Shown: in pieces, positions 1-55,774 of the stretch
How the letters are laid out: each line of letters starts with the position of its first letter
How positions within the stretch are numbered: the first letter of the stretch is position 1
NCBI GenBank assembly: GCA_026419785.1
Contig: JAODTK010005631.1
Coordinates: 62,001 to 126,000, forward strand
Direction: 5' to 3'
DNA: 64,000 bases
Origin: Sclerodactyla briareus
Lineage: Eukaryota > Echinodermata > Holothuroidea > Dendrochirotida > Sclerodactylidae
Position numbers and translations under genes: made by a program
The notes under the pieces: generated by a model
Seen by the model: the letters and a program-made list of their open reading frames with translations, nothing else
What the model was told of the DNA's origin: nothing
Database searches by the model: none

Positions 1-1575
1 CCCCAACGTCACTACTAGAGTCACTGATTGCAGCTGTAGTACATAACTTGATTCGCATTATGGTATACGTAATTTGAAGCTGCATTTCCGCATCCTGTAC
101 AGTCGGGCATGCGTCCAAACGCGCATGCGTCTTGCATTCTGCGTGGACAGGACCGCGTGTGCCTAATTGTATATTGACTGAGTATATTCACTGATTTTCA
201 GGCGTCAGTATAGTAACATTAGTAATACTCAGGAATTAGTAACCGTCTTTTTGCACAAATCAGGCAGTCCACGCTTACCACTATGACTAGAACGGGGTCT
301 TAGAAGTCCCCGGTCACACATGCCAAGAGGACGGTAATAATTCGTTCGGTTGTGTGACGTGCTTTAAGAATAACGAAGAATAAGAACACTGAGACTATAC
401 ACCACTCCCTGTCGGAAAGGTGTTCTTCCTGGGTGAGTCATTCGACAAACCAAGCTGTCTCGTGCCCCTGATTCCAATCCGTCGAGCTGACGCGCTCGAC
501 GAGAAGGCTACAGGTTCATTCTGCGGGGATTTGGTTATAAACCGACCGGGATTCGACCCCTGACTGACCCTAAAGCAAGCACGGGAATAGTAGATTGTGA
601 GACGGTTCCATTCTTGTTTTTGTTGGATTTGATTATGTGTGCAAAGTTTTATGTCATTTCATTATATGAGAACTTTCCAAAAGGAGGGCCTACATACGAA
701 ACGAACGAAGCCAGGAAAGTCAGTGAATCAGGAGCTAACAATGAAAATCAAACAATCATGGAACAATCAGTCATGTATGAAGCAACGTATCTTCAGTGAC
801 CCTTCTGGAGCCTGAAATTGAACAATAAAACCCTAGAAGTGAAAGTGTCAAAGGCAAACGTCCACACTACTACGGGAAAATAGAGGTGGCTGTGCCAAGC
901 ATCTCTTTTCCCGAATCTCTCTTTCGATTTCAAGCCAAGGTAGGGGTATTCCCTATTGAACAAGGACAGAGATATGACTGTTATTCCTTTACCTAAGGTT
1001 TTTTACCTTATGATATCTAAAGGATATAGTGATATTCATTTTACGACGCACGCGCTAGGAACAACACAATATGAAAGAATATACTAGTAACCCTCAAAAG
1101 CAGTGTTCACAAGGTTCACAGTTCTTAAAATCCTCCCACTCAGTTTATACCTATCTTTGACTAGATGAATCGCAGAGGTTGAAAAACCATTCGTAAAGTT
1201 TGACCACAAGTAATTGGACAGACAGAAGACAGAACCAGGCGCACAGACAGACAAACGATAGATAGACCATTTACGATGTGTTTTTTTACGGTTTCAGTTT
1301 CACGTGACATTGTCTAATACGTTATTCGAAACTGGTTCCGTTCTTCGTTGTAAAGCCCACAAATAACTCATGATAACGTCACTTTTGCACCATAAATTCA
1401 TGTGTGTGCCCTGTGTGTGTCAATGGTCTCTAACAGAAGATAGCCAACTTTTACCAAGAGAATAATTTCCCAGAGCATAATACCGGACTGACCAGTGTCC
1501 ACCTTTTGCTGTACTGACGGAGAAAAAGAGTCTCTCCGTGGACCCAGGCAAATGTAATGTTTCTTCCTATGAAGA

Positions 1576-1640
1576 AATGATAATAATCATACTAATAATG
1601 ATTATATTATTATTGCTAGTAATAATAATAGTAATTGTCC
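1576..1640. repeat. AT-rich trinucleotide repeat (copy 1)
   Basis: Interrupted ATA/ATT/TAA units. The equivalent in duplication copy 2 has expanded to about 200 bases at 19,563-19,765. Confidence 0.7.
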
Positions 1641-1949
1641 GGGATTTGTAGGAGGAGACACACGAGCAGAGTAGATATGGTCTTTTGGTCAAATGTGTAT
1701 TGTCTTTCTACACAAAAACCCTGTAATAAAAATAAACAATTCTTAATGGACTGGCAAGAATATAACAATTAATAAATTGACGTTGCAGTGCGTACTAACA
1801 AAGGCATGCTATTATCAGAACCATACCAGTCTTGACCAGTGCCAACAACTCATAAAGCAACATACAACAAAATCCTTGCCTGAGCTATTTTCCTGTATTG
1901 TCTTTGTCCGTTATTTATTTCTTTTCTTTCTTCGGGCTTCAAGGAGCCA

Positions 1950-2370
1950 ATTAATGCTCACCAGGGAACCTATCAGTATTGCTCGCCTTACGCTTCTCGA
2001 CTTAGTGCTCAGAAGATATCGAGTCAGGGGGGGTACCAGTCCTCAAACCTGCCCGGAACCGCCATTTGGCGTCCCCCATCGAACATAATCACTGAACTCC
2101 AGACCGATACGATCTCGATCGTTCCTGAGGAACGTCTTCTGCTCACAGCCACTGACATCAACACTTAACGACGTCGGCAATATTCCGTGACAATCCCCCA
2201 ACAAATTCAGAAATCCACACTGCATTACAGCGGGATCACGGAAGTGAAGACCACGACCTCGTCCACCCAAGTACGCACCTAGGGAAAAACGGTCCAGTAC
2301 GTGCTGATTTCCAAACCTGGAATGCTTGTTTTGGAATGCACAATCACTGTTACTCAGCACGCATTACTGT
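1950..2370 (-). pseudogene. Decayed kinase C-lobe region (copy 1)
   Basis: Similar over its length to 6,280-6,720 and 19,900-20,280. The part at 1,981-2,040 corresponds to the RLGSV-HPCLEIAWSTSQDEKAR stretch of the 6.3-kb piece, but the frame contains stops unless a base is added. Open minus-strand codons from 2,360 to 2,043 are a by-product of this alignment rather than a convincing protein. Confidence 0.4.
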
Positions 2371-2579
2371 GGGGACGCAACACAGATGCTAACGTGTATT
2401 CGGTGTGTACATACATCGCGCATCGGCCACTCCCGTTATATTTCACAAACAGAGCACGTATAGGGCGCCATGTGCTCGACGTGGGCAATGAATTCATTTC
2501 GAGCAAGTGACTGATAAAAACACGACGTAACAAACAATTCTGAAATAGTATTGAGAAAAGACTGTCAGGAGTGACCAAC

Positions 2580-2647
2580 CGTGTCGAATATCTCATTGAC
2601 TTTGTGTTGCAAATATCGTCAGGCACAAGTCGTACAGTTTTACACCA
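2580..2647 (-). pseudogene. Possible kinase activation-segment exon, frameshifted (copy 1)
   Basis: Nucleotide counterpart of 20,498-20,563. The acceptor-like ...gctagcacag at 2,648 is followed by TGGTGTAAAACTGTACGACTT, where copy 2 has TGTAAACTGTACGACTTC. The extra A changes the KLYDF frame, so the reading becomes CKTVRLVPDDICNTKS. The downstream part, equivalent to PADIAQNKV, is recognisable as PDDICNTK in the shifted frame. Consistent with a decayed copy of the same exon. Confidence 0.4.
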
Positions 2648-3869
2648 CTGTGCTAGCGGGTCAGGAGCAACTTTGGAGGCCGAAAGCCTGGGTGACGATA
2701 CTGTAAATATAGAATAACATATGTCCATATTCCTGTTGGTTCATGTTGGGATGCAATATACGATGACCGATAACGGGACAAACCGTCTGTTGAATAGTTA
2801 TTATGATTATATTACTAGTATATGATTATGTTTTTTGTTTGTTCTTCGTTTTTTTTTTTTTTTTTTCGTTTTTTTTTTTCACTTATTTGTATAGGCACTG
2901 TCCACTTATCCTGGTATTTATGGCAATTTCGTGTGTCAGTGTGTGTCGAATTACACGTCAATCAGCGTTAATTGACAGTAATATATCAACACGGGTTGAG
3001 GCATAGCAACTGCTTTGGACTATATAAGGTCCATGATCCACTTAAAAAGCGGTTGAGGTCGAACGCATTGGGATATGGCACAAAATATTGAAGGTGGAAT
3101 GGGGTGGCAAACTACTCGAACAAACCTGATCTTTTGGTTGGCGAGTAATATCTAATTCACGATTTTCTCGGTAGTCGGGGATTCGAATGAACGATTTGTT
3201 ATTTTTATTTTTATTGAAATAATTCCATAGGCCCACACTCTTTGTATTAATTCGGGTGGCTAATCATTATTAATTTTTTCTCAATCGCAATCGAAATTTG
3301 TTAACATTTTTATTGCAAATTCCTGTCATGTGCATGAATAGACGACATGACACCACACGCTTTGTGATTAGGTCTAGCAGTCGGGGATCCTTTTCGCCCC
3401 CCCCCTTCTGTTCGTCGTCGTATAGCCTATTTTGTCAAATGCTTTCAAAATAAAATGCAAACCACTCCACTTGAGTACTCTCACACTCAAAAACTATTCT
3501 ACCTTAATGTATTCGCTTCCCGATCTAACAGTCAAATTTTCTCTATCAATACAATTTCACATACAGCGAGAGCATCTTCCCAAAGCCGGCCTCACTACTC
3601 CTCTGTCCCATTCTGTTGCTCAGCGTAGTAATTTACATGGAGAGGCTTTTGAGGAAGGGAGATACATAGGACGAGTCCATACCTAATCAGCATGGCGTTT
3701 GCTTTCATACTGAACATTCCTCTTTTTACATACTGTATTTATCATGAACTCATCTCACCGAATAGGTGTTTGTAAAGAAATTCACGTGAATCTGATATTG
3801 CAAAATACATCTTGTAACTTGGCTGGGACATACTCTACGTGATTTTTTTTACAAAATACTGAACCTAAA

Positions 3870-3914
3870 TTCATGGTTTTTAATTCCTTGACGACGTCAG
3901 AAACCTCCATGCCT
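3870..3914 (-). pseudogene. Possible kinase alphaE piece (copy 1)
   Basis: The minus strand contains GMEVSDVVK, and with one base shift GMEFLTSSR-like codons, matching 22,935-22,983 in copy 2. The segment fits the alphaE region that leads to the HRD loop. There is no HRD motif and no clear splice borders. It lies between the hinge (5.5 kb) and activation-segment (2.6 kb) pieces, which is the expected order. Confidence 0.25.
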
Positions 3915-3979
3915 TTTGGACCGCGTGTATATGACGGCGTGTGTAGTGTGTACGTGCGTGTTGCGTTGTTTTTGTTGCT

Positions 3980-4350
3980 TGTAAGTGAACGCCTAGCTTG
4001 CTGACACCTGATTCACCAGGTGCCGAGGAGCTCATATTCGTTATGTGGGTTTCCCACGATGAGTACGCGTTGTTCTGACATCTTGTTAATACGATTATTC
4101 TAAGATGTTAGTCTCATACGGTTGACTTCTGGTATGCACTGTTCTCATTGGAGTAATACACGAATCCTTTTTTTTGGGTGTAAATAAAAAAAATTCTCTT
4201 TTTTTTAGTGTGAAGACAAAAATGAATATTTTGGCCCGGATTTAGCTTGTTTAACACAATAACGTGAACCCACCTGGGTAGATGAAACTTACTATTATTG
4301 GGTCGGGATAAAAGTATTTGAAGGTACACCATTTGAATCTTATAATTCTT
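3980..4350. repeat. Dispersed 'hormone-element' type repeat (copy 1)
   Basis: Holds 'gaacccacctgggtagatgaaac' and the pair 'aacgtgaaccc'/'gttaacac', which recur at 23,020-23,420, 27,120-27,600 and 38,290-38,830. The family signature is: accaaatttcaac-tgat, ggactta-cgtgttaaca, tgacctttgacct, ccccaaaacaatagggatcatgtact, accaagtatgagcttcat and cctgggtgg-gtcgag. It lies between the hinge and activation-segment exons. Confidence 0.5.
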
Positions 4351-5455
4351 CATTATGGAAGTGTTAATATCCAGGACACGGAGAATACTCCACGTCCCCC
4401 CCCCCCCTTTTTTCTCGCACCCCACGATTGGGAATCGCTGGCTACGTGATTGGCATTAGGTAATGGCAACGGCAAGTTAATTCCCCGGGACGGGCTAATG
4501 GGGCCTTCGCACCTCGGTGTAACGCGGTTATCGTAAGCAATTAGCAAGTTCTTTCCTGAGGTGGTTTAACTTAAAATCCTATGCATATACTATATTTACC
4601 AGTTGTGTGCTCACGGTCCAGTCCATCATGCTTGCTTCGATCAGAATTTTAAGTTATCGTGTTAACATTGAGTATTCAGTAACCCTCTAAGCCAATAAGT
4701 GACTCACACCATGGTTTACTCCAGATAAAGTGGTTCACGAGAGTCATTTGCACCTTAGTATAAGGAACACGATATGCCGACCATATAATGTTGATTGGGT
4801 AACACAATCTCCTCTCCGTTCAATAGATTACTAGTGATCAGCCGATGTCCGAACGAGGAGAAACCAAGTATCTTATTGAAACTTAGCTTCCTCCGACGTT
4901 TAAGCTTCGAAAATGTAAGGAATATGAGGGGTTTCGGTACGACAATTCTCCCTTGGTATTCGATACATATTGATTGACCGTGTTTTTACAACCCCTCACC
5001 CCCCCCCCTTTTCTTTTCAGTTTGCGGCGCAATTGAGATTTTTCGTACTCTAAAAGTTATGCGTAACAGCATTAGGCCCATGCCCATTCGCAGTTGTTGT
5101 TTGGATAGGAGCCCCATTTGTGCCCCTCTCCGCTATATTAAAAACCATTTTTTTTTTTTATTCGTTCGCTCTAGGAATCTATCATCTATCTAGAGGTCTA
5201 TGTCTGAAAGGAAATTGAAATGTTTTACGCATAGGGGAGCCCGGGTGTTTGTGAATGTGGGATAGGTGAAGGGATGCAGTACCCCAATGATTAGTATATG
5301 AACCGATTCATCGGAAAAAGTCAAAAAAAGTAAAGGAATCACCAAGACATCTTGGCTGTTCTATTCTTCTGATTCCCTCTTATTCTTATCTCCGTCGTGA
5401 TTTCCAGCGAGATTCCCGTGTCCAGGCCATTGGTGAGGTCTGACAAATAACTTAC

Positions 5456-5589
5456 CATACTCACTATTCCTGTTTGATGCTGCTGCCTTGGTGTTAGCAG
5501 CACCGGCAAGACTCCCTCTTTGGCCCGGTAGCTCCTTGACGGTACCTCGGGGAAGATCCACATGTACTCTATGAACATATAGTAAGGCA
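5456..5589 (-). pseudogene. Protein kinase hinge exon, frame-scrambled (copy 1)
   Basis: 134-bp exon. The acceptor is ...caccttacag at 5,590 and the consensus donor GTAAGT is at 5,455. The first two bases complete a valine codon from the alphaC exon, then PYYMFIEYM is read (beta5 and start of hinge). Relative to copy 2, about five bases are missing directly after EYM, so the following frame (WIFPEVPSRSYRAKEG) no longer gives GSLRDYL. It nevertheless stays open to the donor, and the exon keeps the phase-1/phase-0 borders. The alternative frame shows remnants equivalent to the ANAKAA stretch of copy 2. Probably a decaying paralogue; a diverged functional exon is possible but less likely. Confidence 0.6.
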
Positions 5590-6280
5590 CTGTAAGGTGT
5601 AGGAAATATCTCTATGACTACAGTATTCAGTAGTGTAGTTGCGGGAGGAACAAGCGCAAATGATAGGACGGATACTAAACGGAATCTTGCACAAGGATCG
5701 TATCTTGGCCCCAATTTGAAAAACTAAACTACCCCTCCTCGACATTCAAAGGGTCATGCTTTGGGATGCTGTGACGCTCAATAACCCTTCAGTATAGCGG
5801 AAACCATGTTTTCGGGTTCGGAACCTGATCCCGAAGCAGTATAAATTTGGCTCTCAACTGGTCGCGAAGGCAATGGCACCGTCTTAGTCCCGCAGTCAAA
5901 TCCATGGGGTTGAACGAGATGAACAAAACTACCCTAGCCTCAGTGAATACGTGAAAGTATGTTGACTTGCTCTGCAAAACGTGTCTTGTCCCAGGTGTTG
6001 TGAGCACCAATTTTCCTGACTAAAACGAACTTGAAAAGCTACAACAAATGGTACGTTAACAATGAATACTCTGCCTTCTAACCTCGTTTATTAGTAGAAT
6101 GCTTATGACCTTTTTCCTTCTTTGAACAGTATCAACAACATTCCTGATGGCATATGCCCGCAAATTTCAGAACACCTATGTTTCGGACAAAAAAGGGCAT
6201 ATTGAGAAACGGATAGACCGTTCGCCAGAGAACTTCCTCTTTTTCATTTTTTTTTTATAGTTCATGACATCCAATAAAGC

Positions 6281-6499
6281 TCAGCAAGGAACCCTGGCCG
6301 TATGATCGCGTTTGAGCAGCTGCGTTAACCTCGCCTTCTCATCTTGACTGGTGCTCCAGGCTATCTCGAGGCATGGGTGTACCGATCCCAACCTGCTACC
6401 CATACTATTTTCCATCCCCTCCTGATGGTCGATCAATGAACTCCATCGCCTGGCCACTTCTCGTGGCCTGGGGGCGCGGAAGTTCAATGCTGTGCTCAC
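6281..6499 (-). CDS. Protein kinase C-lobe end, third copy, open frame
   Basis: Open minus-strand segment whose translation contains REVARRW, then SRLGSVHPCLEIAWSTSQDE followed by KARLTQLLK. This matches the alphaG-alphaH-alphaI end of tyrosine kinase domains (usual pattern: REV...L..G.RL..P..CP..L......CW..dP..RP.f..Ll). The invariant Arg of 'RP' aligns with the KAR stretch. A stop follows about ten residues after LLK, as expected for a short C-tail. It is the best preserved of three related pieces (others near 2.0 and 20.0 kb), but it lies between the alphaC exon (7.2 kb) and hinge exon (5.5 kb) of copy 1, so it cannot be the normal 3' exon of that gene. Confidence 0.5.
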   Translation of the reverse strand: MSTALNFRAPRPREVARRWSSLIDHQEGMENSMGSRLGSVHPCLEIAWSTSQDEKARLTQLLKRDHTARVPC

Positions 6500-7144
6500 A
6501 GCCCGACCGACGGAGACCTCACTTCAAATATCCCTAACAATCCCAGTAACCACAGAAGGCCCACTGCAATCAACGGCGGGGACCATGAAGGAGGACCAAG
6601 ACCCGCACTCAAGCATCGCAACTACACACACGCCCGCGGAAAACGGTCAGTTCACTGCTGGAATTGAACCCGTGATGTTTGCTTTCAAAGCGTTACTGCT
6701 AACTGATGTCACTCTCCCGCCCTGTCCTCTATTTGCTCTTACCTCTACGACGAAATCCCAGTGGATTCGAAAACATTAAGAACAGTATGGAACCCTGTAC
6801 AAGTAAAACTTTCGTGTTATACAATGAACTATAATAAGAAAGTATCTAAATCGATCGAGTCTTTGACTGTAGCACCTGTACGAATAAAAACCTACGCATG
6901 CGCTGTAATTAAAACACTGATTCGCGGACCATTAAAAGAACACTCTTTGAATGGAAGCAGGATCATAATGTTGGCCGTATAAAATCGAAAGTGTCGACAG
7001 GCCTTGTTTTTACTCCTTCTGCCCCATTTCAACTGTGCTCAATTAGGACATACAAATCACGCAAAAGGCAGGGCAAACGCAGGTTGTGGCGTTCATTTGG
7101 GGTGGCACCGGTCTCTATCAGAATATATATGGTGTTTTCCTTAC

Positions 7145-7216
7145 CATCGTCGACGACAATCCCGAGAACGGTGACGATATTCCTGTTTTCTCTGAGAACT
7201 GATCAACTGTGTTGCC
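7145..7216 (-). pseudogene. Protein kinase alphaC-beta4 exon with in-frame stop (copy 1)
   Basis: 72-bp exon on the minus strand. The acceptor is ...tcgggttcag at 7,217 and the donor is GTAAGG at 7,144. It encodes SVLRENRNIVTVLGIVVDD, a textbook alphaC-beta4 segment with an intact NIVxxLG motif, better than copy 2 in beta4. A TGA codon lies four codons into the exon, upstream of SVLREN, so the exon as read is broken. Length is 2 + 23 codons + 1 base, preserving the phase-1 borders seen in copy 2. The terminal G joins the hinge exon at 5,589 to give valine followed by PYYMFIEY. A sequencing error cannot be excluded for the stop. Confidence 0.6.
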
Positions 7217-7299
7217 CTGAACCCGAAAAACTCATTAGATCCGCAATATGGTCTTCCTTTGGGGAAATGTTCAGAGAGACAATTGAACCTCTAACACAA

Positions 7300-9250: not shown

Positions 9251-9254
9251 TGCT

Positions 9255-9690
9255 GGGGGACCAGTTAGTTAACTAAACGAACACACCTTACCCACATCGC
9301 TATTTTGAGGTGAAGAGGTTGTTGAGGCAACGGGGGTAGGTCTACCACCTGGCTGGATCTGGTGATATTTTCTTTATGGTGCGACTACCTTGTTGAAGTT
9401 GGGTGCAAGGTCACATACTATCACTAATTGGACTGTATGAGGTACAACGGTTGCGGCATCGAAATGCAGGCCGGGAACACCACACATTGCGTTGGAAAAT
9501 AATAGTTGGTTCGAAAAGTTGACTTGGATGCCGTGCGTTTCCGCCAGGTATTTGCGCACTCTGGGCCATCGGTAGCACTTATCTAACTTGGTGGTCGCTT
9601 GAAAGTGAGTACCATCCCCTTCTCCGCACCTCGATGCACCACCCACTAGAACGTGTGGCATTGGTCTGGGTCTCCAGCGCGGCATTCACG
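9255..9690 (-). mobile_element. Transposon-type ORF fragment, replicase-like
   Basis: Minus-strand frame 9,685-9,374 contains GDGTHFQATTKLDKCYRW followed by RKYLAETHGIQVNFSN. From memory this resembles a domain found in many invertebrate multi-copy ORFs, with a 'fHfh...KLd...RW..v...l...hgi.vnFs' core followed by 'YYSAwrYvtKED' and 'HP'. The first motif has the spacing of an HxH (HUH-type) metal site, but the second His is Gln here. Downstream, a frame change gives HPTSTR, consistent with the HP that ends this domain, then a basic tail. The fragment is short and frameshifted. The HUH assignment is inference; a profile search would settle it. Confidence 0.4.
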
Positions 9691-9699
9691 GGTCAAGCC

Positions 9700-11535: not shown

Positions 11536-11837
11536 TCTCTCCTCAAAGTTCTGCCAAGACAAAAGAATCAAGAATGGACATGACTGGTAGAATGACCCCA
11601 CAGTGACATTTGTGGAAGTATGTTCAGTCACACACATACTACTGTGACTGCAAAAATCCTTCAAATCCCAATTCACAAGGAGCAGTCCTAGGCCAGAACA
11701 ATACGGCTCGTCGAGACTTCCTGCAATGCTATTCAAACTCTCTGTAACCTGAAACATATGTACAGAACTAGGTCAACTAAGCAAGAGTAGCATGAACCAT
11801 CCAGCTGTCCTAACAAAGGGAGCTGTAAGTGTGAGCA

Positions 11838-11859
11838 CCCCCCCCCCCCCCCCCCCCCC

Positions 11860-11907
<48 letters not shown>
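11838..11907. repeat. Poly(C) tract, 70 bases with one A
   Basis: Twenty-two C, one A at 11,860, then 47 C. The minus-strand frame across it (Gly run) is an artefact of the tract. Shorter C or G runs follow at 12,115-12,128 and 12,213-12,223. The strand asymmetry and length could allow G-quadruplex formation on the minus strand. Confidence 0.95.
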
Positions 11908-11908
<1 letters not shown>

Positions 11909-11909
11909 T

Positions 11910-14480: not shown

Positions 14481-14489
14481 TGAACTACA

Positions 14490-14590
14490 ATTTAGCCAGG
14501 AACTAAGAATTCGAACCTAAGCAAGATTCACCCCCTACCAACCAGGCAATGCGCCGAGCTTTCGCTAAGACTGCCCCCCTCAACAATATC
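14490..14590 (-). repeat. Weak tRNA-like (SINE-type) segment
   Basis: The minus strand reads cttagcgaaagctcggcgca then tgcctggttggtagggggtg and ttaggttcgaattctta. The last part resembles a B box (GGTTCGAATCC) and the first loosely an A box. Arms do not pair well, so it is not a functional tRNA; a decayed tRNA-derived SINE is possible. Confidence 0.2.
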
Positions 14591-14599
14591 ATGCCGTCT

Positions 14600-17500
14600 T
14601 AACCCGCTTAACCTAATGGAGCGAATAATTGTTTCTCCTAATATTACCACTTGCACAGATCGACGTCAAACCGCTTTCACCCATACGTTAAAACAATAAT
14701 CCAGTCTCTTTTTTGAAGCCTTCATGGTTTAGCTTACAACGGCAAATAATGTTGATATTTGCTTAAGTCGCACGATGACTTCCCGTATAAACATGAAACC
14801 TCATACGCCAAGTCTAACAATAGCTGTATTAGGCAAAAGTGCTCTCAACACATTTCTATTAGGAAGATAAATGCGCTTCAATCAAAGCTTCAACCAGAGG
14901 ATGTAAAAATGACCGCACAGGCACCAACTAGTAGCTCTCTCAGTCTAGAAGCTCAGATATTCGCCCATTTCAGATACGAGTGCAATGATGAAGGTAATAC
15001 TTTACGAGCCTGTCGATGGATAATATGAATGAGGTTTGACATTACGAAGCAAGTTATATATAATATATATAAAAACGTTTTGCTACTGTGGACAAAACCC
15101 ACATGTCGAAGGCTTAGTATGCTAGGAGCTCTGGACTAAACCGTTTTCATCTGCTGTTTCGAGCCTGAGCAATAGCAATGAGAAAAAGAGAAGACCCCCT
15201 CATCTTCATTACCAAGATAGACATAGGCAAAACATATGATTATTTGCACTATGAACGTGTCTGCATTTAGTAAGATCTAACTCAGTGTAGTCATTCATAT
15301 TTAGTGACGGAAATGAAAACATCAGTGTACAAGTGAACCCATGACGATTAAACAAAAAATAATCATTAAACATCTAGGCCTACTTGATTTGAACTTCACG
15401 ACCGTTATTGAATTAACACGCTGTTTGCGCCGTGATTTGCTTTAATATTCCTCGCATCGCACAAGAATTAGGAACAACGGGAACCAGCCAGTCGTAAACA
15501 CACCTTCAGCGGTATTGGTTTCTCAGCTTTTGCTCGTGCTTCTAGGTTTGGTATGTGTCTGTGTTTTGCACTGCTGTTGAGTCCCTCCTGGTAAAGAGGC
15601 GGACATGAGATTTGGCCTCCAAGTTTCTTCTGAGACCTTCAATGAGATGGTTACGTTGCTTGATTCCCCTTTTAAGCTGCTACAAAGAGCCGCGAGGCGC
15701 TTTGATAACTTAATGCGCCTCGGGTTAGTTCTTAGTAGGCGTGCATTATAAATGCTGCATATTTTTATTAGTATATACCAACATGCCGATGGCAGTGGTA
15801 AGTTCAGGAGACCAATGTTGACATGTTCATATGTAACATTACCTAAACTTACTTAGGAGCGGGGTTCCTGCGCATATTGTTTCCCGGAGGTAAAGTTCGA
15901 TGAATATTCAGTTCCTCATCACTTATTGGGAAGAGCTACGCAGAAATAATTCGGAGTTAGAGCCGCCAACACTGTGTAAACGATTTGAATCGTTCGTTTG
16001 GAACCTGTCTTTAAGGCTCAACAAGGATGGAATATGGCCTGTGTTAGGTGATAAATGGCAGACTATCATCATACCATTCCATACAAAAAACGCCCGATCC
16101 TCAAAATCGAAAGAATATGGTTCACCTAATACTCCTAAGTCAGTCATATCGTGAAAAACCGATAAAAGAACCTCGTACGATAATCTGTTCACTCAACGAG
16201 ACTAAAACAATGTGATCCATCCCACGTTGGCAATAGCGACGCGGTCCTCCATAATTGGGCAGGATGCTCAATCAGTAATGATAAAGACTACATGATAACC
16301 GAAAGAATGCACCATATCGTTGTAATAAGATCTGGCCTTATTGCAGTGCTTTCTTTATTACATATCATATCCCGAGTAAATCTTACGAAATAAACAGATC
16401 TGGCCACTACTTGCCAATAATTTGGAACACTCCTGAATGCCTAACAAGATTCCCAGTTCTTAAACGTGGTGTGTTTACTTAGTAAAGTTGTAGCGTACCA
16501 ATTGCGTCTAATTGCTAAGCATTTTAGAGTGGAAAAACACCTTTCGAAGTTTGACAGTGGAAGCTGATGTTTAGTTCACCAATTCCTTTGGAATGCAGGT
16601 ATCCGAATAAACAGATAGAGCCAAATGGCTTATTGACCCTTGATTGATCCACAATCCTGCCCAATTCTATCTCTCTCGAATAATTCATGTACTCATAACT
16701 AAGAACTCACATACCAAGTAAATGAGCACCATCTCTGTATGTGTGCGGTCGTCGAGTTATCGTGTTAACACATTCAAAAATTATCGAAATATAAATCTGC
16801 CCCCACAGGCCACCCCGCCGCCCCACCACCCGCCCCCACCTCTCTTTTCCACAAAACGTGGCTCCCAACTATGCCATGAACAAGTTCTCCAACGTTGAAC
16901 CTGCAATATGTCAAAGCGATGAAGAACATCTATTCATAGGTGAACCACATTGCCAAGTAATAGATAAAAAAACATGTAATATATATTACATAGTCTCAAT
17001 ATCACAAAGAGTAATCAATGCGCTTCCAGAAGAAGAAAACTAAGTCCTAACGACATGAAACAACACCAAACACCGTGAAGAAACGAAAGAAGCTACAAGT
17101 AGTAAAAGCCCCTAACAGGAAAGCGTGTTTACCGCGACTGTACAACCCAGTAATACTAGTATGAGGTATTAACTTCTCTATCCATTGGTGTTTAGTTATT
17201 TGTGTGAACGAGTCCAGGACGGCCCCTCACATATAACATCCCCCCCCCCCCACCCTCCTACCACACACCACGATAATGACGGCACAATTCACGTTCACGT
17301 GACTTCCGTCAAGACTCGAACACCATAGAGTTCGGGTTGACGGAAATTCAGGATTAAATGCATATTTCGACTTGGAACATCATACCTCTTTCAGGATAGA
17401 GTACAACAAACGAGTCTAAGTCGGTCCAGAACTGGTGGAAGGAGGGTCGACCTTGGGGAGACCCAGTCCTCATGCGACAGCATTATAACCAAATCTAACG

Positions 17501-18010
17501 AGGGATAAATAAACAGTCCGATTCCACTAAAAAATAATGTAAGAGCCAGAAGGCATTCCTAAACGTCCTCCGATATGTCTCCGTTTCGCCTGACGCGCCA
17601 ATTTGATCGCCTCACACGTGAATTTCCGGGAAGTCCGACAATGACTCGTTTTGATACGCCCCTGTGTCAAAAAAAGAAAAAGAAATAGAGCGGAGACCGT
17701 CCATATCGGAACTGGCCTTTCGAAGACGCCATGCGCATCTTACGGAGGCTATCCGTCAATTCGGTTTCTGTAATGTTTTTCTCTCACGAACATTTTGGAA
17801 AGTTTTTTTTATTTTTTTTTCATATTTTTTTTTCTTTAGATTCACTATAGACTCATCATCACTATCGCGATCGCCCACAGCGAATTAGCTGGTTGTTCTG
17901 GACCTAGATTATATGTTGACTGGCCCTACTGAAAACGCATCGATATTGGTGCAGTATTTCTCATCTGTATCGAGGGGCATTGTCTCGTACGGGCATGTCT
18001 CATGCATGCT
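14600..18010. other. No gene recognised
   Basis: AT-rich sequence. A C-rich patch lies at 16,801-16,845 and a C run at 17,240-17,250. Overlapping plus/minus frames at 15,900-16,190 are not family-like. Further exons of the left-hand kinase gene, if it had an intact 5' half, should be here, but none could be recognised. Confidence 0.4.
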
Positions 18011-19562
18011 GTTTTTAGCCTGTTTTATATTAACTGATTTTCATACGGACGCCGGCACTCAATATTAATAATCCTCACTCAGCAACAACCAAAGTCTTCC
18101 ACAAATCCCGGCCCTCCACCCTTCACAGCACACCTTTGCCTGAACGGGAGGAGTTTTTCAAGACGCTTCCCTAGTCAAGCAAAAAAAGTGCTGCTAAAGA
18201 TTTCCAGCAATTTTCATGGGCTTCCAAGCACAATTGTGGGACTTTTTGTTATTACGTTTCAATTGTGGTGCTTTAAACACACAAATAGCCCCCGAGACGA
18301 ACACACGATAAACCGTCCTGAATCATTACCTCTTTCGGGGTACAACACAGTCTCGTTCCCAATGCGGCGTGCTGAGCGTTTAGCAGAAGGTAACAGTCGC
18401 CATTTTTGTGGTGTGGGTATATTCCGGCCATGATACGACACGACCCTAAGCCAGCACTGGATGTTTCAATGTGAGAACAATCAGAAGTCTCCGTTTTGTG
18501 GAGGATAGTAGGTTACGGCGTTTCACTATTCTTGGAAGTATACGTTTTTGCAGGAGAGCACATTTTTAAATTAACGCTATATAATACCGACATCATGATC
18601 GCTAAGTAATTTAAAACATTCACGGGTGAAAAGGCCTACATGTCAATACCATTCTATGTGATACGACATCGTGTATAGCCACAGATCAACTCAACTCATG
18701 GAACTCACCTCCTGGGAACAATCTCTGCAAGCAATGAAATGAAAACAATCGACAACCCTAGAAGCGAAAGTCGTCAAAGGCAAACGCCACGGCTCCAGGA
18801 CATATGGGGCTGTGCCAAGCATTTCTTTTCCCGAATCTCTCTTTCGATTTCTTCTCCTGTCAAGCCAAGGTCTGATATATTCCCCTGTCAAACAAGGACA
18901 GAGATATGGCTGTTATACCCTCTTATTACCATGAAGGCTATTCCCCTAATGACAGCGAATGGATATTGGTATGTACTAAGTATTATTTTACCGACACACG
19001 CTCCTAGAAAACAACATATTCTTTTATCAGTATTCCTCGAAATCAGTGTTTTACAACACAGGTTTCCAGATATATCCACCCAATTAGTATAGAGTTATTG
19101 ACTGAATGACGCAGTCTGAAATCCAGTTGAGTTTGGAACAATAACGGGACAGACACACAGAAAACAACGGACGAACAAGGCAATATACAGACGACCGATA
19201 GATATACAGACGACAAGGTGCGAGTCTTTGTAACGTTTTCGTTTCACGTGACGTTTTCCTACTTTATTCAAAACCTAGATATGTGCCCTTTCGTTGAATC
19301 CAGCAATAACTCCATGATATGTCACTTTTGTCATTTTGCATACCACCTATTAATGTGGTGCACTGTGCGGTGGGTGGGTTCCCAAAAACATGTCTCTAAC
19401 AGAAGGAATAAGGCCGACTTCACCAAGAGAATAAATTTTCCCAAAATCATGATAAACCGAAGGACATATGTCTGCCTTTTCGCTGTATCTGACGAAGGAA
19501 AATATCCTCCGGTGGAACCAAGCAAATGGAACGTTCTTCTATCAAATGAAAAAAACAAACAA

Positions 19563-19765
19563 TAATATAATATTAAACCGATATTATTATCATCAATAAT
19601 ATATGACTAATAATCTAATATTAATACTACTATACTACTATACTACTACACTACTACTACGTCCTACCACACTAACTAATACTACTACTACTTAATAATA
19701 ATAATAATAATATAATATAATATATAATAAGAATAATAATCATAATAATAATAATAATTATAACG
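19563..19765. repeat. AT-rich trinucleotide repeat (copy 2, expanded)
   Basis: Runs of TAA, TAC, ACT and ATA units. It corresponds to the short array at 1,576-1,640, so it shows length divergence since the duplication. The minus-strand frame over it (I/L-rich) is an artefact. Confidence 0.75.
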
Positions 19766-19924
19766 ATATAATAATAAGACTCAGCCCATTTGTCAATGAC
19801 TAGAGTATCACTGGCTACGTTTATTTTCTGACTGTCTGTGGATTCGATTTGGATCATATGGGTTTCAAGAGCACAATACGGGCGCACCATGGAACCTTTT
19901 CATATTGATATAGATGAAGCACCG

Positions 19925-20060
19925 GCGGCAACTCGCTTTCTCTTCCGACTAGTGCTCATAGGATATCGAGGCAGAGGTGTCACCAGCCCTACCATGTCCC
20001 GGGACCGCATTTTACATCCCCATCCAAAGATGATCAGTGAACTCCGACCGACCACGTTCT
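19925..20060 (-). pseudogene. Decayed kinase C-lobe piece (copy 2)
   Basis: Aligned by nucleotide similarity with 6,281-6,499, which encodes a C-lobe end. Here the stretch equivalent to WSTSQDEKAR reads STSRKRKR only after a one-base shift; the uncorrected frame meets a stop just before it. The surrounding block 19,900-20,280 is similar to 1,950-2,370 and 6,280-6,720. It is downstream of the activation-segment piece, as expected for the last kinase exon of the right-hand gene. Confidence 0.4.
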
Positions 20061-20497
20061 CAAATCGGTCGGAAAAACTTCTTCTGCTACAGCCGATTGA
20101 CAACAATTACGACGGCGCATAATCCGTAACGAACGGCCACAATTTCAGAAAACCACTGCATTACAGGCGGAACGACGGAGTAACGACCAAGACCTCGTTC
20201 AATCGGCAACTGCAAGTACATTCACCTGGTGAAACGTCCGGTGACTGCGGATTTTCAACCCGGAATGTTTACCTGGCCGAACGTGTATTCGTGGTGTACA
20301 TAACATATAGCGCATCCACTTCCTTTCTATCTCACACACAGTTCTTCATTATCACATTATTGAACACGGGATAGGGCTCCATGGTTCTTCGCTGGTACTC
20401 CGGGGCCGAGAACTTCATTCGCGGGCACGGGACTGAGAAAAACACTGCGGACCACCGATCTAAATACAGTAAAAAGAGGACTGTCAGAGTGACCAAC

Positions 20498-20563
20498 TTC
20501 GTCGAAATATGCATTGACTTTGTTTTGGGCAATATCGGCAGGCACGAAGTCGTACAGTTTACA
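20498..20563 (-). CDS. Possible kinase activation-segment exon, DFG altered (copy 2)
   Basis: Tentative 66-bp exon. The acceptor ...gacagcacag at 20,564 is followed by TGT AAA CTG TAC GAC TTC, giving CKLYDFVPADIAQNKVNAYF in phase 0. The pattern [C/V]K[L/I]xDF matches the beta8-DFG segment of kinases, but the DFG glycine is valine here, so if real the product may be a pseudokinase. The donor (GTTGGT) is weak. The frame stays open further to about 20,357. The corresponding copy-1 sequence has an extra A that breaks this frame. Order on the minus strand (after hinge, before C-lobe) supports the assignment. Confidence 0.4.
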
Positions 20564-20723
20564 CTGTGCTGTCCGTGGTGGAGAACTTTTGGAGGCCACA
20601 AGCCGGGGTGACTATACTGTAAATATAGAAAACATATGTCATATTCAATGTTGTTCAATGTTGGGGCACAACCATCATGAGTACCTCGTGATAATAACGG
20701 GGGACCTCCGACGTTGATAGTTA

Positions 20724-21580
20724 AGCGAACTATCCACTAGTCCACAGCGCACGCGCAACGCGAGGCCGTCCGCAGAATGTCACCATCCACTCCTCCGCAG
20801 AAACCACAGCACCACGCCAATCGTGCTAGAGAGTCAGTAACTCGGAAAACTAGTTCTTCTTCTCTCTTCTCGTTTTCCTCTCTATCTTTATTATCCGGCC
20901 ATTCTGCTTTATTAGCCATTCAGTAAGTATAGGCCACATGACACGTCGACTTTTCAACAACTCAGGAACTTGTAGTATAATCATCGTTTGGTTCGCCCCA
21001 ATTCTATTAATATAATGGCAGAAAGCGCATGCGACCAGCTCGTGGCTCGACAGGTGCAGATGTGTGGTGAGTCTATCACTCTCGGTGTCCTCTAATGTAT
21101 AAATCCAGTTCAGCAATCGTTGATGTGCCAAGGGTTCTGTGTGGTAGCTGCCTACACGGGTTGTCTCTCCATTTATGCACCCGTCGGCAGCTCCCCCCCC
21201 ACCCAAAGTTGGGAAGTCATGGCACGTCCCTGCTATGACTAGCTACGCCAGTTCCCCCCGCCCGTTGTGGAGATCATGGCGCCGTCCCTGTTAAATGGCA
21301 TAGCTCCCCCCATGCCCCCGCCTGCGGGAGGATCATTGCGCCGTCCCTGCCAGTGGCATCGCTCCTGCCGATGGCCACGATGCCCATTCCTGCGCATCAG
21401 AACCATCCGCAGTGCTTGTCCGCAGAAATCGCTCACCGTTGATTCCCCTGCGCGCACTCTGCGGATGCGCGCGCCCTGCGAACGTGGATGAACCTTTGTT
21501 ATTCCCCACATATCAATTTCTGCGGACGCGCAGCGCCTGCGCTGCGCCTGCACCCGCGGGCTAAGTGGATGTCCCGCTTC
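20724..21580. mobile_element. Terminal-inverted-repeat insertion, GC-rich
   Basis: An insertion present in duplication copy 2 and absent at the matching point of copy 1 (near 2,790-2,800), so copy 1 gives an empty-site comparison. The left end reads ...tatccactagtccacagcgcacgcg...cgtccgcaga. The right end read on the other strand gives ...catccacttagcccgcggg...cgcgtccgcaga, an imperfect inverted repeat of about 60-70 bp. Length is about 860 bp with no recognisable transposase, so it is probably non-autonomous. A related segment is found at 57,860-58,020. The target-site duplication was not defined. Confidence 0.55.
21188..21358. repeat. 57-bp tandem repeat, three units
   Basis: Three imperfect units inside the terminal-inverted-repeat insertion (about 21,188-21,246, 21,247-21,300 and 21,301-21,358). 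Each has an agctccccc start, a catggcgccgtccctg-like core and a tggca end. GC content is far above the surroundings. Confidence 0.6.
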
Positions 21581-21752
21581 CTGACTATATTTGACTATTA
21601 TCTCGATTATGTGATTAGATTTGTTCGTTTGTTTGTCCCCCCCCCCCTCTTATGTTAGATTGGCACTGTTCGAGCTATACTTGGTATTAAATGCTATTCG
21701 TTTTTCGGTGTGTATACTCGCACTTCAACAGCGTTCATGACAGGAATATATC

Positions 21753-22700
21753 ACAGCGCGATGGGGCAGAGCCACTGTCTAGCTATTAAGTCCATTATCT
21801 AGTTGAAAGCGGTGATGTGAGAGCATCATTATAGCACAACATACGGACCGTGGTAAGAATGGGTGGGCATTGAAGAAAAAAAAAAAAACCTTATCTTTGG
21901 GCGATTTTCTCGGTAATTGTGGAATCGATGAACGACTTTGTTTTTATTCAGGAAAAAAGTCATAGTTTCCCACGCTTCTGTGTTAATTTTGTGGAATGAA
22001 AGACCAGCAGGACTACAACTATGTGATGAGGTCTACTACTCGATCGCCCTTCTTCTCTTCGTATATCCTACTATTGCAATATGCTTTCAAAGATTCGAAC
22101 CAATCAGCTTGAGTACTTCACATTAAAAAAAACTTCCCGTTAATTATCGCTTTCGATGCTCGTGTCATATTTCTCTAGTCCGCAAGTTCGCACACAGCGA
22201 AACCTGTCCACCTAAAACCTGCCTCAACAGCGCGATGGTGCAGAGCGGACGTCTATGACTATTAAGTCCATTATCTAGTTGAAGCGGTTGATGTGAAAAC
22301 CATGATTATAGCACAACATACCAACTTTAAGAATGTGTGGGCATTTAGAAAAAAAAAACATGATCTTGGGCGGATTTCTCGGTAATTGGGGAATCGATGA
22401 ACGATTTGTTTTTATTCCGGAAAAAAGGTCATAGTCCACGCTTTGCAGTTAATGTGGAATGAATAGACCGCATGACTAACAAGCTCTGTGATGAGGTCTA
22501 ACTATCGGATCGCCCCTTCATTCGTCTTCGTACTCCTCTCTATTGCAATATGCTTTCAAAGTTCGAACCACTCAGCTTGAGTACTTCACATTAAAAAAAA
22601 ACCTTCCACGTTTAATTATCCGCTTCGATCTCTTGTCATATTTCTCTATCAACGCAATTTCGCCACACCGCGAAACCTATCCCCTAAACTGCCTCTTCTG
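21753..22700. repeat. 474-bp tandem duplication inside copy 2
   Basis: The unit starts at 21,753 with acagcgcgatgg and restarts at 22,227 with the same sequence. Both units then carry gtccattatctagttgaa, an A-run, ctcggtaatt, gaatcgatgaacga, gtgatgaggtcta and cttgagtacttcacatt. The two are clearly closer to each other than either is to the single equivalent in copy 1 (about 3,005-3,600), so this duplication is younger than the 18-kb one. Open frames across the units differ, so it is not coding. Confidence 0.75.
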
Positions 22701-22934
22701 TCCCATTCGGTTGCCTGACCTCTGTCCCATTCTTCTTTACATAGAGTGTCTATATGAAGTTAGATTTAGTTTTTCTTTCATTACTGCCCCTTCTCTTTAG
22801 CAGACACGTACTCATAACTGGGACTGACTTTCAACCCGATACGTTTGGGAAAAGACATTCACGTGAATCTGATATTTCAAAATACATCTTGTGACTTGAT
22901 GGACAGATTTAGTAAATGTATACAAAGAATGGAT

Positions 22935-22983
22935 CTTAATTCATGGGTTGCCACGTCCTTGACGAAGTCGAGAACTCCATGCA
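22935..22983 (-). CDS. Possible kinase alphaE / catalytic-loop piece (copy 2)
   Basis: Tentative partial exon. The minus strand reads CMEFSTSSRT, similar to the alphaE 'GMEFLxSR' segment that precedes the HRD catalytic loop in receptor tyrosine kinases. A one-base frame change afterwards gives THELRS, where HRDLxxRN is expected. The position between the hinge exon (24.9 kb) and the activation-segment piece (20.5 kb) is right, and the same sequence is conserved at 3,870-3,914 in copy 1. There is no clean splice border and the catalytic Asp is not visible, so this is either a degenerate exon or chance similarity. Confidence 0.3.
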
Positions 22984-23019
22984 GTTATGACTGCGTTTGA
23001 ATGTATGTGCGTGCGTTTG

Positions 23020-24010
23020 CGTATTGGTGTGTGGTGGTGAAGTGCGCCCGCTTGCTGACACCTACTCCAATAGTTGCAATGGAGCTCATATTTGTTACTG
23101 GGTGGGTTTCCCATTATAAGCAACGCATTGTTTTGGGATTAAAATTGATGGACGGTCATCTAAGGTCGAAAAAGGACAACGTCTGAACATCTTGTCAATA
23201 CGATGACTTTTGGATGCAACTTTGTATTGGGTGTACAAGGAATCCTATTATGTTTGGTGTATACCGATAATCATCCTCCTCTTCTTTTAGTGTGACAAAA
23301 AAATATTTGGGCTTAATTCTAGCTTTGTTAACACCATAACTTGAACCCACCTGGGTGGATGAAGCTCATGTTCGTAATTGGGGGTTTCCCTATTAGTCCA
23401 CGACCCCAACTGTTTTTTGGGGTCGGATAAACGTCTTTGAAAGATAATCCTCTGGAATCTTATAATAACAACCCCCCAATTGGGGAGAATTCTGCCTCAC
23501 TCTTTATCATCCCTTTTTATCCATGCCACGGAGATACCCGCGGTCCCCACACCATATTGTTGGTTCTTACACTCCACCACGATTTTTAAAATCGGCTGGA
23601 CCTGATTGGCATTATGTAATGGTACGGCAAGGTAGGTCAGCGGGGTCTGCGAGTGCGCCTTCGCACTCGCTAGGCTTCCGATGTGTCCTCCGTCCTGCCG
23701 TTAGTGACCATTACAAGAGTTAGCACTCTCTTCCATGGGCGTGAGGGTTAACTATAAATCCTATAGATATTCTATATAACAGCGTGTGATAACACGATCA
23801 GTCCAGCTGCTTGGCCCATAAATTATATTCTGGACTTATCGTGTTCACAATTTTTGGACCTTTGTTTGTGACCTCGGTGACCTCCGACCTAAAAAGAAAG
23901 CTATGTGACCGTGAACCCCTTATAGGAATTCTCAAAATAGGTATGATCTTATCTTGATCCATGCATGTTCCATGCGAGTGTTCATGGGCCAGGCGTCCAC
24001 ATACCAAGCA
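23020..24010. repeat. Dispersed 'hormone-element' type repeat (copy 2)
   Basis: Counterpart of 3,980-4,700. It keeps gggtttcccattataagcaac, gaacccacctgggtggatgaagctcatg and a TGACC-rich stretch at 23,857-23,890 (gacctttg-tttgtgacctcggtgacctccgacct). Copy 2 is about 220 bp longer than copy 1 across 23,815-24,190. Confidence 0.5.
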
Positions 24011-24864
24011 CCCACTTTCATGACAGCATATTTTCTTCGACTTCATCGAGTAATGAAAAAAAGTTACTCCTAGCCTATTACTGTAATTATTACTCAAGCA
24101 GCATTCTCGTGTACGTCAGAAAAAAAGGTGATTTACGCCATCCAAATCTGCACCTAACAGTAAAACGACCAAAATAAGGGCGACCCTTTTGATGTTGATT
24201 TTGTACGCAATATTTCCTATCCGTTCAGTGGACGATTCATGATCAGCAGATGACAATAAAATTGAAAACATTAGATTTCCCCGAGGTATAAGCTTAAAAA
24301 ATGCAAGAATACGTGGTTTCGGGTAGCAGACCTCTTCTCTCTTGTATTAAATACAATTAATTGGACTGTTTTTACACTCTCTTCCTTTTTTTTGAGATTC
24401 CAATGCCCTTCATCTGTTCATCTTTTCAGCGCATTGGATTGTTTTCAACCTACTAATACTACGTATGGGCTTAACGCGTAGGCCCATGCCTCCTTGTAAC
24501 GAGAATTGGTACCGCCCTCCGCCGTAGTCCAACTTATGGGACTCACAGCAGCGTGTGTTTTAAGATTTACACAATTGTCCAAAAACCAATCGGGTCTAAT
24601 AAATGGAACATGTCAGTCTTACTGAACTTCATGATCTAAACATGATAAAAACGCTGCTATGATGCGTATGTTTTTGTTTTTGTTTCTCCAATGGAATACT
24701 TCCGAGCAAAGGCTGAATGTGTTCCAACAAAGTAAATGTTCACGAGAGACACAGAACCAGCTATATTATACAAATACCCTACTACGATGCTTCGTTATTG
24801 GCATAGAGATACGCCATCGGCCTGCGCACGTCAAGGGCAAGTAGATGAGCCCGAACTTATCAAC

Positions 24865-24989
24865 CTCTGTTGGTACTGCTGCCTTGGCGTTAGCGCACCC
24901 GCAGTACTCTCTTAGACTGTTCACTCCTGAGAGGTAGTCTCGGAGAGATCCACATTCCAGGTACTCCATAAACACATAGTATTGTGGTA
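24865..24989 (-). CDS. Protein kinase exon, beta5-hinge-alphaD (copy 2)
   Basis: Partial CDS, one exon of 125 bp. The acceptor is ...caactcacag at 24,990 and the donor is GTTGAT at 24,864. The exon starts with two bases (TA), completing the codon left by the alphaC exon, then encodes PQYYVFMEYLECGSLRDYLS. That is the classic beta5 strand, hinge (MEYL) and alphaD start (GSLRDYL) of tyrosine kinases and JAK-like domains. The remaining residues (SLREYCGCANAKAAVPTE) would fall in a kinase-insert position. The frame is fully open and ends in phase 0. The donor is weak compared with the GTAAGT in copy 1, so the 3' border could be a few bases off. This is the strongest single kinase signature in the window. 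Confidence 0.7.
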
Positions 24990-25739
24990 CTGTGAGTTGT
25001 AGAAAGTGATATGCATGTAGTAAATATGTGGTAGTGTAGCGGCACCGATTTCCCAAGGATGCCCGAGCCTAGTTTAGTTTTGTGAGGAAGGTTAGAGTCG
25101 AGGAAGGACAAATCCCTCATGAACGACCCTTAACCACAACCCCAAAAAGTGCGAACGCGCCCAGAAGCTACATAATCGCCCCACAGTTTTCAAAAGAATA
25201 AGTCGAGGGCGTTCTTGAAGCATTACACTACTAGACATAACAACATTTTTCGAAAGGCTATTACATACACTCGTTATTACTCCTTTTCTGAAAAAGAAGT
25301 GTTTCCGAATCCCAATCTACACGAGAACCTTGGGTTGGAAGGAAACAGACCAGTCCAACGTTTTTTTTCAATTGTGAATGAAAAAAAAAAATTCCTCAAT
25401 TGGGGCCTGAACCTGACCTCCAAAGCAGTACTCACAGCGCACATAATCGAAAAAAAGTGAGCTGGTGACAGAAAAAATACACTCTCTCTATTCTCCATCC
25501 AAGTTCGTGTATTTACCAATCTGCGAAAAAAATATCGCGTCCTTGTCAATAATGCTCTTTCACTATTGTTTCGTTTCACTTTGCTCTGTATGCAACTCCA
25601 GTCCATTAGTGATATCAGTATTTCAATATCTAGAAACACTCAGTGACTTCCCTTTGACTGATTTCTGGTGACGAATGTTAAGAGAACACAAGAACAAATG
25701 TTCAATTGTACTCAAGCTCTAGTGGCAACATATATATGT

Positions 25740-26270
25740 GTTCACAAACTTCCATTTTCTCAAAATTCCACACTCTACCAAAAGCAATAGGTTTCCTGTG
25801 ACACAATGGCCATTTCATCTTCATATGATAGCATTGTCGAATTAAGCTGTAAGACGATGTCTTTTATGAGAGATTTTCACACTAGTGGCACTTGAATGTA
25901 CCATACTGATGTATTGTGTTTATGGGGATTTCTGAGCGTCTACCACTAACCTCGGGCTGAAATATTCAGTGGTAAATGTACTCATCATGGGGAACTTGCA
26001 TCCCATGCACGTTCTCAAAATTACACCAACTCTACCAAAGCCAATAGGTGTCCTGTGACACAAGGCCAGCATTTCATCTTCATATGATAGGCATTGTCGA
26101 ATTATCCGTAAGACGATATATTTTTGAGAGATTTTCACAACTAAGTTGGCATTGAATGTACCATACTGAATGTATTGTGTTTATGGGGGGCTTTCTGAGG
26201 CGTCTACCTTTAACATCGGCTAAATATAGGGGTACGATGGTACTATCATGGACTGCATCCCATGCACGTT
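25740..26270. repeat. 265-bp tandem pair
   Basis: Two direct units, about 25,740-26,009 and 26,011-26,272. Shared landmarks are ttctcaaaatt, tcctgtgacacaa, catttcatcttcatatgatag, cattgtcgaatta, gtaccatactga, tgtattgtgtttatgggg and gcatcccatgcacg. They lie in the intron between the alphaC and hinge exons of copy 2. Minus-strand open frames here are interrupted and not conserved between units. Confidence 0.75.
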
Positions 26271-26628
26271 TAGCCTCCATCCACACAGATGAAATATGCA
26301 AAATGCAAATTTGCCATTTTTACCACGAAGGGGCCTCCTCTCACAATTTTCAAGTTATCGGCCAAGTGCTCTCCGGAATCATCATGTTCACGCGGTTGAA
26401 CTCTGCTGACTTTTGACCTGCCCCGGGCACACTAAAATAACAACTTGTTCTGGGATGGATATCCCCTACCATACTAATTAGGAGCTTCCTCCTGCAGATC
26501 TGGCGATGTTTACAAGTCCACAAATTGACAAAAAAACGTATCTTACACATTTCATAACCGTAATAACCCCCAAGCGCCGGAACATATACATCTTAGTCAT
26601 GGCACCAGGGCATGTTAATAATATTTAC

Positions 26629-26703
26629 CATCATCGACCTGCAATTCCGGAACGGTGACGATGTTCCGATGTTCCTTGAGGCTGAGTCTGAGTTGCCTGG
26701 CGC
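26629..26703 (-). CDS. Protein kinase exon, alphaC-beta4 (copy 2)
   Basis: Partial CDS, one exon of 75 bp on the minus strand. The acceptor reads ...ggtttag at 26,704 and the donor is GTAAAT at 26,628. It begins with two bases of a codon, runs 24 open codons and ends with one base, so both borders are phase 1. The translation contains QLRLSLKEHRNIVTV, which fits the alphaC helix and the [HxN]IV start of beta4 in eukaryotic protein kinases (compare the usual 'L..HPNIV.LLG'). The expected LLG is PEL here. The final base joins the hinge exon at 24,989 to give a valine codon and keeps the frame. Family is inferred from motif position; tyrosine kinase or receptor kinase is most likely. No P-loop or VAVK exon was found upstream. 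Confidence 0.6.
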
Positions 26704-26774
26704 CTAAACCTCAATAAATCCGCGATCTGTGCTTTATCTGGGAAAATTCAGACGAATCAGCCCACCATTATATA

Positions 26775-27115: not shown

Positions 27116-27119
27116 TTTT

Positions 27120-27600: not shown

Positions 27601-27630
27601 TGCAACAAGCGACAAGGCGTCACATAAACT

Positions 27631-27656
27631 AACACACACACACAAATATATATATA

Positions 27657-55770: not shown

Positions 55771-55774
55771 CTGT

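Follow-up and report, generated by a model that had tools for sequence, protein, structure and literature searches.

Does the genome of the holothuroid Sclerodactyla briareus contain a tandemly duplicated kinase gene, and could the products still be active enzymes? The first part of this question goes back to an earlier note on a 64,000-nucleotide stretch, here called the window, which corresponds to positions 62,001 to 126,000 of the 219,794-base contig JAODTK010005631.1 (C2874; assembly GCA_026419785.1). Positions without a contig name refer to the window, and genome searches covered the 319-Mb assembly of 3171 contigs, the content of which (intron-rich kinase, actin, and HSP70 genes and a PTK7-like tyrosine kinase) is animal-like. 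Our results favor, with somewhat better than even confidence, two tandem pseudokinase paralogues, designated A and B, which would have lost catalysis before they were duplicated and whose frameshifts would be largely assembly indels.

Comparison of the window with itself by BLAST, in place of the dot plot proposed in the earlier note, gave a chain of collinear matches between approximately 0.5–7.3 kb (block A) and 18.4–26.75 kb (block B), with an offset of 17.9–19.5 kb, in agreement with the two collinear blocks about 18–19.5 kb apart that had been described. With laxer settings, the pieces of A (470–628, 778–4669 in fragments, 4712–5642, and 7141–7275) were matched by the B pieces 18355–18506, 18696–23851 (also fragmented), 24107–25043, and 26625–26752. 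The introns are also similar, with an ungapped identity of 0.815 over 3093 aligned non-exon bases; hence, A and B are head-to-tail collinear copies that include their introns, that is, a tandem gene duplication. The extent 1..26770 originally given to the locus had to be corrected, since the kinase domain of A and its duplicated unit run past the left edge of the window. Unit A extends to about −5.66 kb, and unit B goes down to 12.7 kb; sequence comparison revealed that the downstream part of unit B (12719–17818, minus strand) has a patchy likeness to the A flank left of the window (12719–13178, 13406–13544, 15184–15822, 17190–17363, and 17378–17818). A scan of the whole contig revealed no copy of the blocks beyond A and B.

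Self-BLAST and the genome search also identified a transposon-like repeat in one intron of each block, at 1982–2265 in A and 19932–20201 in B (no strand assigned). A 2-kb query around this repeat gave 54 matches, with scores for 40 of 2738 candidates, and more than 20 further copies dispersed in the genome were listed. The repeat is therefore part of the similarity between A and B, and scattered transposon copies were what the earlier note had named as the observation that would undo its claim. Nevertheless, that the similarity consists only of such copies is already refuted and has virtually no chance of being correct, given that the kinase exons are collinear with the profile matches presented below and that the repeat sits at corresponding intron sites in A and B. 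This matching position suggests that the transposon copy was already in the intron before the duplication; the locus would thus have originated from a 13–14 kb segment that was duplicated after the insertion.

Both copies contain, on the minus strand and in the same order, six exons corresponding to αC; β5-hinge-αE; the catalytic loop and DFG; P+1/PPE-αF; αG; and αH-αI. In copy B, the αC exon (26629–26752, 5′ end approximate) reads IFPDKAQIADLL...LKEHRNIVTV..QVDD and is followed by the donor GTAAAT. The β5-hinge-αD-αE exon (24794–24989), which has a phase-1 acceptor and whose end was deduced from the donor of a related copy on contig C213, reads VPQYYVFMEYLECGSLRDYL...ALDVRRPMAYL. The catalytic-loop/DFG exon (20505–20616, 3′ end approximate) has HPG at HRD and DFV at DFG, and the P+1/PPE-αF exon (19424–19538), read across frameshifts, gives NVPFAW.PPEDIFLR.YSEKADI.SFGIM.WEIYSLG. 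The αG exon (18800–18884, 3′ end approximate) reads GLTGEEIEREIREKKCLAQPHMCP, and the αH-αI exon (17386–17493), also read across frameshifts, MLS..D.SPQGRPSF...LDSV.SILKE. In copy A, the αC exon (7145–7275, 5′ end approximate) reads NISPKEDHIADLMSFRATQL.SVLRENRNIVTVLGIVVDD before the donor GTAAGG; the hinge-αE exon (5397–5589, end approximate) is more eroded than that of B, with a 5-base gap in the hinge and an αE that is hard to read. The catalytic-loop/DFG exon (2590–2700, 3′ end approximate) has HPG and, at DFG, GACTTGTG; the P+1-αF exon (1455–1566), read across frameshifts, gives NITFAWV...GIMLWEIYSLG with the donor GTAAAA, and the αG exon (860–952, 3′ end approximate) EYPYLGL...EIEREIREKRCLAQP. 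A probe search located the αH-αI exon of A just outside the window, on the minus strand at C2874:61006–61107.

The earlier note had claimed that the αC exon leaves one codon base, that the hinge exon brings two, and that the rebuilt codon is valine in both copies, and this was confirmed base by base. The αC exons end in ...GACGATG before GTAAGG at 7145 (A) and in ...GATGATG before GTAAAT at 26629 (B), and the hinge exons start after ACAG at 5589 in A (TG...) and at 24989 in B (TA...). The phase-1 codon is accordingly GTG in A and GTA in B, after which both frames continue VP(Q)YY[MV]F[IM]EY. Read by eye, the αF-αG junction seems to be phase 1 as well (TTG before GT..., then GG GAA TAC in A).

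Are these exons those of a kinase? The window was scanned in full with a tyrosine-kinase consensus, with tolerance for frameshifts, no prior choice of frame, and reversed sequences as controls. The two APE-αF exons came out on top, that of A with a score of 65 and that of B with 61; the best reversed control reached 48, a value that the B hinge exon only equalled. In the same scan of the whole contig, one unrelated place on the plus strand scored 54. A more permissive setting was dropped and the penalties were raised, because it gave minus-strand scores of 72–106 versus reversed controls of up to 93. The exons of both copies, joined across frameshifts in frames chosen by their kinase likeness, which raises the scores, matched the PF07714 profile above its curated cut-off of 23.1: B with 68.9 bits (E = 5.7e-19, residues 8–199), and A with 41.2 bits (E = 1.5e-10) in the αF-αG part only (residues 116–179). 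The αF exon by itself scored 38.6 bits in B and 23.0, just under the cut-off, in A. The claim of a tandemly duplicated kinase locus, which was to be abandoned if the joined exons had no kinase profile match, is thus supported by the self-BLAST, the junctions, the consensus scan, and the profile. PF07714 did not match any of three open frames taken singly from the hinge region, and none of its 36 matches at E ≤ 0.001 in the genome corresponded to the exons of A or B, which indicates that profile searches intolerant of frameshifts miss such loci in indel-rich assemblies.

In a structure-sequence search, the joined B exons aligned collinearly with FGFR1 over query residues 6–198. There were 851 distinct sequences matched, and FGFRs occupied 59 of the best 60 rows, the first row being EGFR, with two kinase stretches; the nearest solved structures among the matches listed were the kinase domains of EGFR and FGFR1–3. 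The kinase domains of FGFR1 and FGFR2 (for example, PDB 3c4f and 2pz5) are collinear with the A/B family from αC to αG, including a long αD-αE stretch. These likenesses suggest that A and B derive from an animal gene for a tyrosine-kinase domain whose C-lobe is of the FGFR type. In this respect the description “receptor-kinase-like” has some support, but in contrast to the FGFRs, neither an Ig ectodomain nor an N-lobe was seen in A or B. Searches for an N-lobe and for other C-tail parts gave nothing clearly above the controls for either copy; in a second search, the only matches that stood out were those with which the αC and αI probes recovered the exons of A and B themselves. Of the 164 frames in the window with 78 or more amino acids, 130 were scanned with Pfam, and no ectodomain family, Ig included, was detected, although indels may hide exons; the scan reported nine families, one frame each (best E = 0.002), none of them a kinase. 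The other 34 frames comprised 14 past the 150 printed and 20 left out, mostly AT- or CA-rich or overlapping. No transmembrane segment turned up at A or B, where no dedicated search for one was made. Receptor status is consequently unproven, as neither the N-lobe nor a transmembrane or outer domain could be located. That no N-lobe was seen in either copy, together with their head-to-tail arrangement on the same strand, would also fit one long gene whose protein has two consecutive kinase domains. We consider this very improbable, because no linking exon was found and the duplicated unit includes several kb past the last kinase exon.

Could A and B encode active enzymes? In the phase-0 frame suggested by the exon end on C213, the HRD site is H-P-G in both copies, and the DFG site, which retains its Asp, is GACTTCGTG (D-F-V) in B and GACTTGTG in A. 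Because indels make the frames uncertain, we looked for the codons of the missing residues in any reading frame. In both copies, the catalytic exon is free of Asp and Asn codons over its first 38 bases (the first Asp codon is at base 39 in A and at base 44 in B). No GG occurs in either within 21 bases from GACTT, and therefore a Gly codon is impossible there in any frame. Likewise, no Glu codon is present in A or B at approximately 33–36 bases before the NIV codon, where the spacing in FGFR and Src places the αC Glu; the nearest ones are at −52 and −11 in A and at −47 and −9 in B. In FGFRs, as the alignment also shows, HRD, DFG, and the αC Glu are all present, unlike in A and B. By contrast, the hinge, the αF and αG regions, and the RPS[F/L] motif are still recognizable (in A, RPSL appears in one of three frames). 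If a pseudokinase is recognized by the loss of the HRD Asp, DFG, or the β3 Lys, both copies would qualify as assembled, the β3 Lys lying in the N-lobe, outside the sequence recovered. A and B are probably pseudokinases, with their catalytic residues gone and their scaffold motifs readable. The earlier note had mentioned neither this loss nor the abundance of indels described below.

The odd motifs might instead be sequencing or assembly errors in two ordinary, active tyrosine-kinase genes, given that the DNA is indel-rich and that a few indels could convert HRD-like DNA into the observed string. This appears quite unlikely: Asp, Asn, and Gly codons are lacking in every frame at the places tested, and the separate loci A and B have the same departures (CACCC.GGCTT and GTGCCTG.CGATATT), which makes error alone an unlikely cause. 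Under the pseudokinase reading, the common ancestor of A and B was probably already devoid of the catalytic-loop Asp and Asn, the DFG Gly, and the αC Glu, while the scaffold motifs were kept.

Such a combination resembles known pseudokinases. The motif rows compared from PMC2639636 give HRN/DFG for HER3, HKD/ALG for CCK4/PTK7, HKD/DNA for RYK, HGD/GLG for SuRTK106, and HGN/DPG for JAK JH2, all of which, like A and B, keep the scaffold and have lost catalytic motifs. HPG together with DFV is in none of these rows. Excerpts of PMC8662651 describe CCK4 as a pseudokinase family and indicate that organism-specific tyrosine-kinase families exist. The likely product of the locus would be a catalytically dead pseudokinase; any action it may have would come from binding and from allosteric partnering, the mode in which HER3, CCK4/PTK7, and the JAK JH2 domain function. 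The same genome contains another tyrosine-kinase pseudokinase-like sequence, at C3080:40805–41374 (region C3080:39305–42874), with an open frame of 240 amino acids that by eye reads HAD at HRD and CTM at DFG. We take this sequence to be PTK7-like; judged by eye it belongs to another subfamily than A and B, with 36% identity to a mixed A/B query over 143–237.

The number of frameshifts needed to read the exons raises the question of whether A and B are genes at all. Against our own exon readings, we counted 16 in 179 codons for A and 11 in 192 for B (27 in 371 together); the αF exon of B has 6 in 39 codons, with residues still near consensus. Elsewhere in the assembly, manual frame arithmetic indicated that actin (C1260:170309–170820) is broken into three frames and HSP70 (C2424:94846–95132) is split over two. 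As even actin is frame-broken, the frameshifts of A and B would be at least partly assembly error. The PTK7-like frame, unlike the window, is clean, so the error is uneven over the assembly. Abutting direct duplications in B (21753–22225/22227–22695 and 25757–26013/26012–26270, 83–84% identical) contain 42 and 21 indel events versus 26 and 14 mismatches, a ratio of 1.5–1.6 that resembles the pattern left by long-read errors or by an artefact of assembly. For the intron repeat, indel events per kb amount to 86 and 70 in the window copies, 46 in a third copy on the same contig, and 33–70 in 20 outside copies. A high indel rate is thus a general trait of the assembly, exceeded in the window only slightly if at all; the rates in the repeat leave error and biology indistinguishable. 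Assembly error, largely in the form of uncorrected single-base indels, would account for much but perhaps not for all of the frameshifts, and apparent frameshifts in this assembly are unsafe evidence for pseudogenes. By the same token, in DNA so rich in indels no distinction between gene and pseudogene can be drawn for A.

Relatives of B elsewhere in the genome allowed constraint to be assessed. The DNA of its hinge exon matched C2857:49561–49761 (83%) and C213:4163–4353 (78%), a list that is a lower bound, as A itself was not among the matches listed. Both relatives keep the hinge acceptor and the first two bases TA, and their αC exons were not seen; the C213 exon ends at a canonical donor, GTAAGC, where B has GAAGC. 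The local family proposed earlier is hence supported and extended to no fewer than four copies of the hinge exon, those of A and B plus one each on C2857 and C213. Nine stretches of viral contigs fitted a pattern, and none was confirmed as a further copy. Between B and C213, identity is 0.907 in the hinge exon and 0.766 in the flank (p = 2.4e-4), and 9 of 17 single-base codon changes are synonymous (p = 0.011); the same exon-versus-flank test gave p = 0.35 for A and C213 and p = 0.09 for A and B. These comparisons suggest some constraint on the B hinge exon against one relative, C213, and no measurable constraint on A. B would be the better preserved copy, and A seems to be relaxed or decaying.

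Several observations weigh against two retained pseudokinase paralogues, in addition to the fruitless N-lobe searches and the raised profile scores. The identity of A and B is only slightly higher in exons (0.849) than in non-exon sequence (p = 0.04), with 0.933 in the catalytic exon, 0.881 in αG, 0.851 in αC, 0.841 in αF, and 0.788 in hinge-αE. In a DNA-only test, 12 of 40 single-base codon changes between A and B (codon positions 15/12/13) were synonymous, as compared with fractions of 0.19–0.20 in non-exon frames; with p = 0.26 against 0.245, this is no proof of selection. The synonymous changes were not significant either for B and C2857 (4/11) or for C213 and C2857 (5/12). Thus, the ancestor may already have been a pseudogene, or A may have been one on its own. 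Moreover, the loss of motifs rests on two copies: in genome searches at E ≤ 1, the DNA of the catalytic exon matched only A and B, and that of the B αF exon only itself. A protein-guided synonymous test of A and B (25/47, p = 2e-5) was set aside as biased after the DNA-only control.

Both copies may accordingly be decayed pseudogenes of a once-active receptor tyrosine kinase, with real frameshifts and an ancestral motif loss that began the decay. This explanation, which we judge rather unlikely although less so than active kinases, is favored by the DNA-only test, by a hinge-αE identity no better than that of introns, by frameshifts in both copies, by a TAG that lies early in the B catalytic exon in one frame, and by the fact that no N-lobe was found. 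However, the scaffold motifs persist whereas catalytic residues are lost, and B stays near consensus despite 11 frameshifts (in part a result of choosing frames by likeness); the B–C213 exon conservation and the broken frames of actin and HSP70 also argue against it. Pseudokinase paralogues therefore remain our preferred reading. A broader proposal, to which we would assign a little less than an even chance, is that A and B belong to a lineage-specific, partly tandem, FGFR-class HPG/DFV pseudokinase family that lost catalysis before duplication, with at least one copy under selection and a role in signalling free of phosphotransfer. The process is an ordinary tandem duplication of a tyrosine-kinase-domain gene, with probably a pseudokinase family as its outcome and possibly one decaying copy, and involves no new kind of mechanism. 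If real and expressed, A and B would represent a young tyrosine-kinase-fold family in which catalysis was lost before duplication, and could inform why dead kinases are kept. Literature searches, made without the species name and so of little weight, found no published work on this locus among the results listed.

Regarding the rest of the window, no tRNA genes and no Rfam matches at the gathering threshold were found in it. A search for COX1 had no match. A repeat family is present at 27010–27643, at 38318–38820, and on the same contig at about 139.1–140.6 kb, with adjacent copies approximately 13–15 kb beyond the window end, and a 1.2-kb repeat pair with 71% identity links 54969–56131 to positions 179871–181018 of the contig. 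The minus-strand open frame 54281–54838, presumably Gag-like, has a weak CCHC zinc-knuckle match below the cut-off (E = 0.0049). Another minus-strand open frame, 29999–30336, was not reported by Pfam and ends in FDTMDHSQLIDRL, a stretch that by eye we take to be reverse-transcriptase-like. Finally, positions 11838–11907 form a 70-base run that is 97% C, a composition unusual in a genome that may reflect an artefact of the assembly.

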